Positions 6,492-58,510 of a DNA stretch of 64,000 bases are shown in pieces (within the stretch, counting starts at the first letter, position 1; each line of letters starts with the position of its first letter). Source of the stretch: Natrinema hispanicum. Its GTDB lineage: Archaea > Halobacteriota > Halobacteria > Halobacteriales > Natrialbaceae. The notes below the pieces were generated by a model. That model saw only the letters and a program-made list of their open reading frames with translations. It did not search any database and was not told where the DNA came from. The DNA lies in NCBI RefSeq assembly GCF_004217335.1, contig NZ_SHMP01000003.1, positions 1,054,001-1,118,000 of the forward strand. The letters are read 5' to 3'. The position numbers and the translations under genes are program-made.

Positions 6492-7697
6492 ATGGCAGAG
6501 GATGGGGAACTGACTGATATATTTGATACTGGTGATATCTTCGCAAACCGAGAGCTGGTTCGAGTCGGTCACGTTCCTGAGCTTGACCGCGTTGTGGGCC
6601 GTGACGAGGAAATCCGATCGGTTGGGAGTGCGCTTGCCGCTGCAACCGAAGGTGGGCCGCCAGAAACGACGATCATCTACGGAAAAACAGGGACCGGAAA
6701 ATCGCTCGTCTCGAGATGTGTCACGCGTCAAGCGTCCAGACGAGCCGCGACCAATGGAGCGGCGCTCAAATATGCATACGTCGATTGTTCTGATTATCAG
6801 ACAGAAACACAAGCAAGCCGTGAATTAGCCCGGGAATTGAACGAGCATCTCGAAGCAGGGGAGTCCATCCCCCAAACAGGATTGAGTGCCGTGGATTATC
6901 GTGACATCACGTGGGACCTGCTTTCTGATTACGATGTCGACTCACTTGTTGTCATCCTCGACGAAATCGATAAGCTCGAGAACGAAGATTTGCTTCGGAG
7001 CCTCTCGAGAGCGCGCGAGAGTGGGAAATCAGACACGTTCATCGGCGTTATCTGTATCAGTAATAAGATCGAATATCGAGAACGGTTGAACGAGCGCGTG
7101 GATTCGAGTTTGCAGGATAACGAGCTCGTGTTCGATCCATACGGCGCAAAACAATTACGCGCGATCCTTGAAAACCGGAAAGACGCGTTCAAACCTGGTG
7201 TCCTCTCGGACGAAGTCATTCCGAAGACGGCAGCGCTTGCAGCTCGAGAACATGGTGATGCACGCAAAGCTGTCGAGACGTTCTACGAAGCAGGCCGTCT
7301 TGCAGAGAAGAACGGCGACGGGCAGGTAACTGAAGCGCACGTTGATGAAGCGATTACCCAAGCAGAGGTCAATCGATTCCATCGCCTCGTGAGTGGACAG
7401 ACACCGCACGTGAAGTTCATCTTACGAGCGCTTGCTGCACTGACCGCGTCAGAGGAGAAAAAACAGTTCCGGACAGCGAAAATATACGATCTCTACACGA
7501 CGATCGCGACTCAGGAGGGATCGGACCCCTTGTCACATGATCGAGTTAGGCGACTCCTCAAAGAACAAGCGTTCCTCGGGATTACTGAAAGCGAGCATAC
7601 TGGTGGAGGTGATCGAGAGGGGAGTTATCTCGTTCATCGGCTGATGCGTGATCCGGATATCGTGTTCAATGCCCTCAACGCTGATCGCGGTCCTTGA
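6492..7697 (+). CDS. orc: Orc1/Cdc6 origin-binding initiator
   Basis: A 401-residue AAA+ initiator that binds origin boxes and loads the MCM helicase. Walker A is GKTGTGKS at residues 64-71; Walker B is VVILDEID with Asp157/Glu158; sensor 1 lies in GVICISNK. A C-terminal winged helix follows (about 310-395), with KIYDLYTTIATQEG and the DRVRRLLKEQAFLGI helix pair. Base composition is visibly more AT-rich than the flanking backbone genes, and codon use is less GC-biased. It is flanked by four 18-bp boxes. No nudix-type gene sits beside it, unlike the classical haloarchaeal oriC1, so a secondary or acquired origin is more likely. Confidence 0.93.
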   Translation: MAEDGELTDIFDTGDIFANRELVRVGHVPELDRVVGRDEEIRSVGSALAAATEGGPPETTIIYGKTGTGKSLVSRCVTRQASRRAATNGAALKYAYVDCSDYQTETQASRELARELNEHLEAGESIPQTGLSAVDYRDITWDLLSDYDVDSLVVILDEIDKLENEDLLRSLSRARESGKSDTFIGVICISNKIEYRERLNERVDSSLQDNELVFDPYGAKQLRAILENRKDAFKPGVLSDEVIPKTAALAAREHGDARKAVETFYEAGRLAEKNGDGQVTEAHVDEAITQAEVNRFHRLVSGQTPHVKFILRALAALTASEEKKQFRTAKIYDLYTTIATQEGSDPLSHDRVRRLLKEQAFLGITESEHTGGGDREGSYLVHRLMRDPDIVFNALNADRGP

Positions 7698-7838
7698 TAC
7701 TCCTCTGAAATGCGAGTGGGCCTTTGCTGGAGCGACAGTCACAGAACCAGCGTCTCAGAGGACTACTGGCGGTCAGTGCCGGTGGGGCCGCGACTGTCCT
7801 GCGGCCCCACCGAGATATCGGTACAGCAGTCCGTCTCA

Positions 7839-7856
7839 CTCACTCGGTGCGAGGGG
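7839..7856 (-). repeat. Origin recognition box-like repeat 4 (downstream of orc1/cdc6)
   Basis: Reads CTCACTCGGTGCGAGGGG and continues TGG, matching box 3 except for the two-base AT/GC change in the centre. It is inverted relative to boxes 1 and 2, so the four boxes bracket the AT core and the initiator gene as one unit. Confidence 0.7.
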
Positions 7857-7996
7857 TGGCTGGCTCGCTCTACCAGTGACGAGGATGACAGAGATGATTT
7901 CACAAGTATTGTTCATGGATTGATTATATCTAATCTCACATCGAACTAGAAGATACGTAGGTGTGCGAACGTACTGCTGCGGGTCGTAATTCGCAT

Positions 7997-8210
7997 CCGC
8001 TCGCTTCGCGAGCGGTTCACCGGCGGGGCGGGATGAAACCCCGCGACGGCGGCCGTTTGGCATCATTAGAACTGTGTTACAGTTCTGATTAGCAGTCAGA
8101 ACGCGCTGCGTTCTGACAACATCAACGGGTTTTGCCGGAGATGGAGGCTGGCGTCTACGACGTCAGCCGATGTCCCCGGTAAAAGAGGTTGCTGTCCTGA
8201 TCGAATCAGG
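7997..8210. repeat. Chain of six perfect hairpins, most with three-base loops
   Basis: Stems seen directly: CCGCTCGC-TTC-GCGAGCGG (7997-8015); GCGGGG/CCCCGC (8023-8044, ten-base loop); AGAACTGT-GTT-ACAGTTCT (8068-8086); GTCAGAACGC-GCT-GCGTTCTGAC (8095-8117); a ten-pair stem starting GGCTGGCGTC with loop TAC (8146-8168, one G-T pair); CCTGAT-CGA-ATCAGG (8196-8210). They could be REP-like units, a structured RNA, or the remains of an insertion sequence. No T-tract follows most stems, so simple terminators are unlikely. Confidence 0.6.
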
Positions 8211-8264
8211 AGTTTATACGACGGTCTGAGAACGGTCCTCTGAACCACTCTTCGTCGTCTGTGA

Positions 8265-9455
8265 TTACCTCTCGAGGATCCGATCGATCAGACCGCTTTC
8301 GTCGCTGCCGAGTGCGGATCGCACGAGCAGGTGGCCACCCAGTTGTGCGGGACTAATCACCGCGTCCGCGCCGGCACGCTCGAGTTTCTCGACGTTCTCG
8401 CGGTCGGTCGCAGCGGCGACGATCCGTGCCCCGGGGGCGAGTTGGCGCGCGGTGAGGACGGTCAGTGCGTCCTCGGCGTCGTGATTCGTGGCGACGAGAG
8501 CCGCGGTCGCACGATCGATCTTCGCGCGTTGAAGCGGGTCCTCATCACTCGGATCGCCGGTGACGACCGGCAGATCTCGGTTCGTGAGTGCTGTTGCAGC
8601 CTCCTGATCGTTGGTGACGACGACGAATTCATGGCCGGTGTCTGCGAGTTCGTCGACGATCGGTTCCGTCAGTTCGCCGTAGCCGAGCACGAGGAGGTGC
8701 TCGTCTAAGAGTTGGAGCTGTGAGTCGGTCATCATTCCGAGTGTTCTCGAGATACGGTCTTGGATCAAGGGGCCGACGAGCGCCCCGATGGCGATACCGA
8801 AGCTCGCGACGCCGAGGATGAGCACGGACATCGTAAACAGCATCGCCTGTACCGACCCCGTGTTCGGTGTCACGTCGCCGTAGCCGACCGTACTCGAGGT
8901 GATCAGCGTGAAGTAGAAGGCGTCGAGGATGTTGCTGATCCCGTCGAAGTGCTCGCGGAGAGTGTACCCGCCGATGGTCCCGTACACTTGAACTCCGACC
9001 AGTGCAGCACCGGCCGCGAGCTGGGTTGTCGACAGCGAGAGCGGCTTGTCGAATCGCTCGCGAGTGAGCAGGAGAACCGGGATCGACACGATCGAGAAGA
9101 CGACCAGCGGGAACGAGTACGGACTCAACTGGAGAAGTCCTTGTGCTGCGGTCAGCGGGAGCAACAGCAGCGTCGCCCACCAGCCCGCTCGGAGCCCGCG
9201 TCGAAGCGACAGCGCGCTGCCGACCATTAAAAAGCCGGTGAGCGCGCCGGTGAAGGCCGCGGCGTTTCGGACGGCGTCGGGGACGTATTCCTCGAGCGGG
9301 CCGCCGACGGCGTTGGTCCCGATGTTGACGACGGCGGTCGCGACCGAGAGCAACGCGACGAGCAAGACGAGCACCACGGCTGCCCGCGTCGTGAGCACAC
9401 GCCGCCAGTTCTCCGGCAGGCGCGCCCGCAACGACCGGTCGTCGACCATACACAT
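8265..9455 (-). CDS. Two-domain potassium channel (pore plus TrkA-N)
   Basis: A 396-residue channel. The first half has about four or five membrane helices and an intact K+ selectivity filter, TVGYGD at residues 189-194, between the last two. The second half is a cytoplasmic TrkA-N/RCK Rossmann domain (HLLVLGYGELTEPIVDEL, from about residue 254) that would bind NAD(H) or another nucleotide and gate the pore. Start is the ATG at 9455 or the second ATG at 9449; both encode the same polar leader. It diverges from the two RCK-like membrane proteins to its right, which may regulate it. Confidence 0.9.
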   Translation of the reverse strand: MCMVDDRSLRARLPENWRRVLTTRAAVVLVLLVALLSVATAVVNIGTNAVGGPLEEYVPDAVRNAAAFTGALTGFLMVGSALSLRRGLRAGWWATLLLLPLTAAQGLLQLSPYSFPLVVFSIVSIPVLLLTRERFDKPLSLSTTQLAAGAALVGVQVYGTIGGYTLREHFDGISNILDAFYFTLITSSTVGYGDVTPNTGSVQAMLFTMSVLILGVASFGIAIGALVGPLIQDRISRTLGMMTDSQLQLLDEHLLVLGYGELTEPIVDELADTGHEFVVVTNDQEAATALTNRDLPVVTGDPSDEDPLQRAKIDRATAALVATNHDAEDALTVLTARQLAPGARIVAAATDRENVEKLERAGADAVISPAQLGGHLLVRSALGSDESGLIDRILER

Positions 9456-57791: not shown

Positions 57792-57904
57792 CCGCAATCG
57801 CGTCTGATTCGGCCCATGAACGGACGCTTTTTCCGTCAATTGGCAGTTCTGTGTCGGTAGTTCTATTATGGATGGGAATCAGAGGTGAAATAGAGGGTCT
57901 ACCT

Positions 57905-58315
57905 GTGGAGATCTCTGAAAAATTGTTGTGTCTGTTCAGTACGGACGTATCGGAAGAGGAGGATCGCTACGTCATCGAGGTACCGCGGCAGGAAGTCGAG
58001 ACCGGCGACATCGATCCCGGCGAGGTCTATCGTGTCGCGCTCATCTCGCGCGAAGACGAAACGAGCGGCGACGAGGGGACGACGACTACGACTCCCAAAA
58101 GTGCGCCATCGGAGCCCCAGCCGCCGGTCGATGTCGGCGAAACGCGCTACGTCGAGATCGAAGACATCGGCAAACAGGGCGACGGCATTGCCCGCGTCGA
58201 ACGCGGCTACGTCATCATCGTTCCCGGAGCAGACGTCGGCGAACGCGTCAAGATCGAAGTCACCGAGGTCAAGTCGAACTTCGCTGTCGGCGAGATCATC
58301 GAGGAGACGTTCTAA
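57905..58315 (+). CDS. TRAM-domain protein
   Basis: A 136-residue protein. The N-terminal part (VEISEKLLCLFSTDVSEEE) is followed by a proline-rich linker and a TRAM domain (RYVEIEDIGKQGDGIARVE to VGEIIEETF), a predicted RNA-binding beta barrel. The start GTG at 57905 follows a purine-rich stretch and a TATA-like TTCTATTATG at 57860-57869; the ATG at 57872 is the alternative. Haloarchaeal TRAM proteins are proposed RNA chaperones. Confidence 0.8.
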   Translation: MEISEKLLCLFSTDVSEEEDRYVIEVPRQEVETGDIDPGEVYRVALISREDETSGDEGTTTTTPKSAPSEPQPPVDVGETRYVEIEDIGKQGDGIARVERGYVIIVPGADVGERVKIEVTEVKSNFAVGEIIEETF

Positions 58316-58341
58316 CAACGACCTTTTTTACCCGAGTCCTC

Positions 58342-58510
58342 GCGCGGCCATCGGCCGCGCTCGAACCCGGGCAAAAAATCTCGACCAAAAACACCGGCAG
58401 AGCAGAACTCTCCCGAGCTCCCGTTCACTTCGTTCACGGGAAAGATCGAGCGCGCCGCCGGCGCGCTCGGTGAAACGGCGCGCAGAGCGCGCCGTACAGT
58501 GGCTGCCACT
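58342..58510. repeat. Second chain of perfect hairpins with three-base loops
   Basis: Stems seen: GCGCGGCC-ATC-GGCCGCGC (58342-58360), CGAGCGCGCC-GCC-GGCGCGCTCG (58447-58469), ACGGCGCGC-AGA-GCGCGCCGT (58475-58495) and AGTGG-CTG-CCACT (just after 58495). Spacing and loop size resemble the chain at 7997-8210, although the sequences differ. Confidence 0.55.

Follow-up and report, generated by a model that had tools for sequence, protein, structure and literature searches.

A row of hairpins beside an Orc1/Cdc6-like gene in Natrinema hispanicum consists of 2 nested, dispersed palindromic repeats

A row of 6 hairpins in the genome of Natrinema hispanicum was found to consist of 2 nested, dispersed, non-coding repeats. 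The row is located in a stretch of 64,000 nucleotides, here called the window, in whose coordinates the features in Table 1 are given. The outer repeat, which we refer to as element C, is about 190 bases long and contains the hairpins H1, H2, and H5, whereas the inner repeat is a unit with the hairpins H3 and H4. Element C is conserved in structure, lies mainly beside the 3' ends of genes, and is present at some orthologous sites and missing at others. In a wider statement, to which we assign a probability of roughly 0.6, both repeats belong to the PATE/REP type of palindromic, non-autonomous elements and are tolerated or useful at gene ends. In place of a suspected origin feature, there is now a family of palindromic repeats with conserved structure whose many members can be counted.

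Table 1. Positions of the hairpins, repeats, and neighboring genes in the window.
Feature	Position	Strand	Description
Orc1/Cdc6-like gene	6492-7697	+	Named from its translation; context, outside the element
Element C	7951-8202	+	Model match; 126 bits with covariance model R1
H1	7997-8015	+	8 pairs, 3-base loop; belongs to element C
H2	8020-8052 (core 8023-8044)	+	Imperfect stem with perfect core; 6 pairs, 10-base loop; belongs to element C
Nested unit	8066-8119	+	54 bases, H3 and H4; flanked by CATCA at 8061-8065 and 8120-8124
H3 (hairpin A of nested unit)	8068-8086	+	8 perfect pairs
H4 (hairpin B of nested unit)	8095-8117	+	10 pairs; arms GTCAGAACGC/GCGTTCTGAC
H5 domain	8120-8194	+	Long stem of C (CATCAACGGGTTTTGCCGG...CCGGTAAAAGAGGTTGCTG), inner hairpin at 8146-8168
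H6	8195-8211	+	Palindrome lying partly in C, at its right edge, and partly in the flank; 7 pairs
Potassium-channel-like gene	8265-9455	-	Named from its translation; convergent; context
Second, diverged family member	58309-58480	-	50 bits with covariance model R1

The row is real and far above chance expectation. The initial annotation had described 6 perfect hairpins, 5 of which with 3-base loops. All 6 were found, the listing of the stems bore out the 5 loops, and 5 of the stems are strictly perfect; the exception is the inner hairpin of H5, in which 1 of the 10 pairs is a G.T pair. The stem of H3 sits in an 11-base arm with a single mismatch (8065-8089). In a comparison with 2,000 dinucleotide shuffles of positions 7997-8211, we observed 4 perfect stems with 6 or more pairs and a 3-base loop, against a mean of 0.07 and a maximum of 2 in the shuffles. 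With loops of 3 to 10 bases, the observed number was 5, against a mean of 0.40 and a maximum of 4, so that none of the 2,000 shuffles reached the observed value. The folding energy of positions 7963-8211 had a z-score of -7.3 relative to shuffles, both as RNA and as DNA. A single other region in the rest of the window contained 3 such 3-base-loop hairpins per 214 bases (starts at 58291-58341), and it proved to be a second copy of the same hairpin family.

The edges of element C are fuzzy, with the left edge probably near 7963 and the right edge near 8204. A search of the same genome with positions 7900-8264 as the query identified 2 copies, at C1:309251 and C1:348943, which matched positions 65-166 of the query and then directly 221-299, with 87% to 90% identity and with the middle part absent. 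Their flanks were different, and in the near-identical copies at C1:309238 and C1:348930 the likeness was confined to the segment between about TGCGAAC and TGTACTTAC. The copy on contig C7 includes the nested insertion and lacks H1, with 92% identity over query positions 121-296, which indicates that the composite of C and the nested unit has itself been copied or converted. BLAST matches to the element were obtained in 40 of 100 genomes, the N. hispanicum genome included. A covariance model, R1, built from 21 insert-free copies, matched 10 distinct places in the N. hispanicum genome at E<=1e-3, where the E-values are rough and antisense matches of the same places were excluded. It also matched at least 92 of 125 genomes of the family at E<=1e-4, a lower bound due to stricter filters and the scoring of 20 candidates per genome. 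The match length was 230 to 253 bases rather than about 190 in 10 of the 69 element loci. Three plasmid records were matched, and no match was found in phage records. The suggestion that the hairpins could be REP-like units or an element was supported: they belong to a dispersed repeat that occurs in many copies and harbors a second one. H6 has 7 pairs in the window and 5 in genome G012, and is broken in G002; since it is unevenly kept across the relatives, we regard it as accidental.

The nested unit was recognized as a separate insertion into C because the orthologous copies of C beside the orc gene in G012 and G002 lack it, with GGCATC leading directly into (A/G)ACGGG. After CATC, the unit consists of hairpin A, TAGCA, hairpin B, and GA, and in most contexts this common plan is followed by another CATC. 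The pattern of hairpin B (AGCAGTCAGAACGC-N-GCGTTCTGAC) had 31 exact matches in 19 of the 293 genomes of the order, against 0 matches in the same genomes for the reversed control. At locus L018, the H5 stem of one copy of C contains a third two-hairpin insertion, seen by eye, with the linkers GAGCCGTGA and GTGAGCAGACGG. A tandem array of at least 5 hairpins was observed at about 1340-1560 of L134, with alternating TTAGCA and CATCA linkers that were constant while the stems differed.

The unit is part of a wider family that is also found inside genes. In DPH5, the product of which we take from its translation to be a diphthamide-methyltransferase-like protein, it was present in 3 of 25 rows, drawn from 31 loci, namely in G007, G041, and G008 (L149/L243, L150, and L244). 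The unit in G007 measures 51 bases and adds 17 residues in frame relative to G004 and G005, both of which lack it; this is the one case in which an in-frame insert was demonstrated, the other rows being more variable in the insert stretch. In G008, both arms of hairpin B have changed in a compensatory manner with pairing kept. The same unit was also observed within other genes or at their ends (L133, L135, L136, L035, L144, L148, and L151), which, judging from their translations, we presume to be histidine-kinase-like, carbonic-anhydrase-like, and DUF1028-like genes and a gene ending in (N/D)IEKLA. The insert in the carbonic-anhydrase-like gene is 58 bases long and apparently shifts the frame. 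In some of the units within genes, the target and its fold-back look duplicated. The idea that hairpin A invariably represents a fold-back of the target in the host, as suggested by L133, L144, and L148, was rejected, since the uninterrupted DPH5 genes of G004 and G005 have no hairpin arm.

Compensatory changes were abundant in the stems of C. Among 51 aligned copies, double changes were seen in 20 of 30 pairs and 96.9% of the cells held standard pairs, counts that are not of independent events because the copies are related and some of them orthologous. The covariation score was 0.365, compared with 0.129 after shuffling (0 of 500 shuffles reached the observed score) and at most 0.104 for slid pairings, in an alignment that was built without structure and from which the pairing scheme itself was drawn. 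Conservation of the stems among relatives, which the initial annotation had named as a check, was accordingly found for H1, H2, and H5, and H6 was not conserved; H3 and H4 are absent from both orthologous copies beside the orc gene. A structured RNA, also suggested there, may be what the stems form, the compensatory changes fitting RNA and single-stranded DNA alike.

The stems are asymmetric between strands. A tandem GA/GA mismatch was found on the same strand in H1 of 37, H2 of 32, and H5 of 46 of the 51 copies, with the opposite-strand form in 2 copies in H2 and 4 in H5 (5' side). H1 had a fully paired TC/GA form in 9 further copies and likewise in the window copy, and H2 had TC/TC, the inverted form, in 2 copies and other letters or gaps in 17. 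In the orthologs beside the orc gene, H1 has 7 pairs in G012 and the form CCGC-GA-GC..GC-GA-GCGG in G002. Tandem G.A pairs stabilize stems, whereas the complementary T.C pairs do not. The asymmetry therefore suggests that the + strand is probably the one that folds, either as RNA or as single-stranded DNA. The sequence before H1 is mostly AGCATC, and that before H5 GGCATCA.

Comparisons of orthologous sites revealed that C comes and goes. At the L044 site, C is present in G019, and the same aligned flanks were only 12, 52, 52, and 45 bases apart in G006, G007, G026, and G004, respectively; the other genomes matched either one flank only or both flanks far apart. At the L003 site, the left flank occurs without C in G012 and G017, and the right flanks differ between species, for which reason recombination between repeats is also possible. 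At the C-free sites, divergence of the intergenic sequence blurs the exact insertion ends and any target duplication. Among 5 close orthologs of the orc gene, C was found in G000, G012, and G002 and not in G024, and the G017 locus had only sequence like the left edge of C followed by other DNA. The gap after the orc gene also contains, at 7750-7890, a further short repeat with a perfect 12-pair hairpin (7780-7812), of which about 70 to 85 bases recur in L082, L239, L171, L225, and L016. The hairpin of this repeat is kept in G017 with altered letters.

The position of C relative to genes was examined in 62 of the 69 element loci. Predicted ORFs, as identified by a simple and crude ORF caller, were overlapped by 4 of the 62 copies. 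A gene 3' end adjoins 41 of the 44 copies for which both flanking genes were called; the two neighboring genes converge at 21 of the 44, point the same way at 20, and diverge at 3. Many copies have tracts of 4 to 6 Ts beside the stems on both strands. The second family member in the window overlaps the last bases of a TRAM-like gene (57851-58315; named from its translation), and a T6 tract begins 9 bases after the stop codon of this gene. In G010 and G006 (L029 and L034), the outer stem and the T-tracts downstream of this gene resembled those in the window, and the inner hairpin differed.

These observations allow for a functional explanation, in which C is a structured RNA, or a bidirectional terminator for converging genes or protection for mRNA 3' ends, that spreads by occasional copying. 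The covariation of the stems, the excess of convergent over divergent sites, and the recurrence of a family member with different inner hairpins at one position after the TRAM-like gene speak for it. So does the finding, in excerpts of a study of Haloferax, that terminators consist of T-stretches and some hairpins, and that in a Haloferax volcanii reporter a T5C stretch ended 95% of the transcripts and a hairpin 59% (PMC7237163). However, C is missing in 4 of the 5 genus genomes in which both flanks of the L044 site lie side by side, and also from the orc site in G024. Between genes in one direction, its orientation was the same as that of the genes in 12 cases and opposite in 8, which indicates no clear need for a particular orientation. 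The Rfam 15 covariance models gave no match to positions 7698-8500 up to E=1. The window copy has weak T-tracts only (T3 and T4), and a scan with a bacterial-type terminator consensus found no terminator in it, sigma-70 and terminator scans being uninformative for an archaeon. We consider this explanation possible, though the odds are against it.

As to how the repeats of the PATE/REP type would move, we tentatively suggest, by analogy with IS605-type elements and PATEs and at a little below even odds, that a trans-acting Y1 HUH enzyme transfers them in the form of folded single-stranded DNA. One strand would fold into hairpins while the DNA is single-stranded during replication or transcription. 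An enzyme provided from elsewhere, probably a Y1 HUH transposase, would recognize a brief guide sequence at the foot of the hairpin together with a short cleavage site, CATC for example, and move the folded strand. Copies would survive where they are harmless or helpful, as at gene ends, where hairpins and T-tracts may end transcription on both strands. We base this suggestion on the strand asymmetry, the constant foot and linker motifs, the lack of consistent inverted ends, and a size near that of the 52-base forms of PATEs.

Against it stand the results for candidate transposase loci. Model R1 had 0 matches at E<=0.1 in the 30 best-scoring TnpB loci and 30 Y1_Tnp loci, the latter being the best 30 of about 60 listed matches, and no Y1 gene among these 30 was flanked by C. 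The best BLAST match of C in IS605-type loci was at chance level (E=0.049). For the nested unit of the window, BLAST matches were likewise at chance level, a 12-base match in 4 Y1 loci lying in a coding stretch. No match to Y1_Tnp at E<=0.001 was found in 8 of 29 genus genomes, including G021, which nevertheless has 11 element matches. That the row is an omega-RNA or a remnant of an IS605-type element was rejected on the absence of R1 matches in the 60 loci. A relative of the nested unit, of the type seen at L032, matched a single TnpB locus (L317, in the N. hispanicum genome; BLAST, E=1.6e-4), where a different hairpin pair with a CATC linker is located more than 400 bases before the tnpB frame. 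A larger inverted repeat, CGCCTCGGGG/CCCCGAGGCG, surrounds this pair, which lies at about 134-181 of L317.

No enzyme may be needed at all if palindromes that already exist give rise to new copies through template switching and gene conversion. In favor of this, the H2 sequences of G012 and G002 run in opposite orientations at one and the same locus, 4 of the 51 copies (L027, L034, L126, and L127) show an inversion of the inner arm of H5, and after the TRAM-like gene the inner hairpin differs among 3 species while the outer stem stays. By itself, however, this process leaves the near-identical copies with unrelated flanks and the wide spread unexplained, and we find this explanation unlikely. 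Equally speculative, and unlikely as a joint claim, is a haloarchaeal hairpin-cassette system, in which a new enzyme would insert units, nest and invert them, line them up in tandem, and exchange them, with pairing kept. Such a system would include the constant linkers TAGCA and CATC, the tandem G.A mismatch on one strand of C, the sites at 3' ends, and the in-frame insertions.

We judge it quite improbable that C is a MITE of the DDE type, with inverted ends and target duplication, or an SMR-like small mobile repeat that targets palindromes. Good inverted ends were seen in some copies (12 of 12 positions in L023 and 9 of 10 in L004), and an end pair resembling GGTCAGTA/TACTGACC recurs among the copies of C. 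Some copies have other short palindromic repeats, with CGGTNACTACA at the end, as their left and right flanks. Yet over the 51 copies the left and right ends of a copy were no more complementary to each other than to those of other copies, with 583 of 2,000 permutations reaching the observed value, so that terminal inverted repeats, though good in single copies, are probably not a general feature. A target duplication at the copies of C is an assumption of this explanation, and no parent transposon for C was found among the loci tested. GGTMASTACANNTGCG was considered as a general target site and dismissed: it belongs to other short repeats, and the window contains no copy of it at up to 3 mismatches. 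The repeats ending in CGGTNACTACA were observed as 2 further dispersed, SMR-like short repeats of about 50 to 80 bases, one at L046, L198-L203, and L210, and the other at L004 and L206-L209.

That the hairpins are a replication-origin structure, or a fork-barrier or segregation structure, of the orc1 locus is scarcely credible: C lies directly 3' of the Orc1/Cdc6-like gene in 3 of 5 close orthologs, but it is absent from the G024 ortholog and present at only 3 of 12 Orc loci, and 66 of 69 element loci had no Orc homolog in the fetched flanks. The other 3, identified by tblastn with the Orc protein in flanks of mostly 0.7 to 1.5 kb per side, are all orthologs of the window locus, and these counts indicate that there is no general tie to origins. 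The initial annotation had placed the row beside an origin. It does adjoin the 3' end of the Orc1/Cdc6-like gene, in the gap between this gene and the convergent channel-like gene, and the origin itself was that annotation's own inference. The proposed fork or segregation site was not borne out: C is not part of an origin, and its place beside the orc gene is incidental.

We return to non-autonomous palindromic elements as the preferred reading, for which the nested, inverted, and unoccupied alleles make the movement of transposase-free haloarchaeal repeats directly testable. The nearest published kind, as far as the cited excerpts go, are the PATEs of Haloquadratum walsbyi, with the REPs as the bacterial counterpart. 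As described in excerpts of PMC3119063, PATEs are haloarchaeal, non-coding, short, divided into several subfamilies, polymorphic between strains, frequently in combination with other small repeats, and have palindromes near their termini, and C resembles them in these respects. With about 190 to 250 bases, C is non-coding and too short to encode a transposase, and it has palindromes near both of its fuzzy edges, H1 about 35 bases from the left and H5 about 10 bases from the right. The same excerpts mention a fused, possibly mobile "terminal-only" form of 52 bases with one fused palindrome; the 54-base nested unit is near it in size, but has 2 hairpins. They also report strain-specific insertions of IS605-type elements and PATEs even though at most one of the IS200-type tnpA genes is intact. 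Unlike PATEs, C showed no relation to the IS605-type transposons at the 60 loci tested (30 Y1 and 30 TnpB), and it has several copies with partly inverted ends and stems that change by compensatory substitution and inversion across many genera. PATEs also lack terminal inverted repeats and target duplications; in C, inverted ends specific to single copies were not seen over the 51 copies, yet one pair of ends recurs and L023 has a perfect 12-base case, and the unoccupied sites were too diverged to define the ends. Since the relation to IS605-type transposons was not found, we have not filed C as a PATE.

The excerpted description of REP/CGTC repeats with RAYT transposases (PMC3733652) has in common with the repeats studied here short hairpins, many of which are downstream of genes and some inside them, and a conserved foot motif; an unpaired GA in the stem is mentioned there for the REPs of P. 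aeruginosa. C differs in that its hairpins have AGCATC or GGCATCA rather than a GTAG or CGTC tag at the foot, in its length with 3 hairpins, and in that none of the 30 tested Y1 genes was flanked by repeats. The SMRs of Haloquadratum, in the excerpts of PMC3119063, are repeats of about 80 to 110 bases inserted into palindromic elements, and their mobilization is called enigmatic. Units at the flanks of L004 and L046 look SMR-like, but C has no consistent inverted ends. The unit in DPH5 can be likened, by description, to the palindromic elements of Rickettsia, which according to excerpts of a review (PMC10969869) are inserted in frame into protein genes, whereas the unit here is archaeal and 51 to 54 bases long instead of about 150. 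No description of C was found among the titles and beginnings of abstracts listed in searches of open-access literature. Compared with these systems, what is new here is an archaeal three-hairpin repeat with covarying stems and a strand-specific G.A signature, inside which a gene-invading two-hairpin unit is nested.
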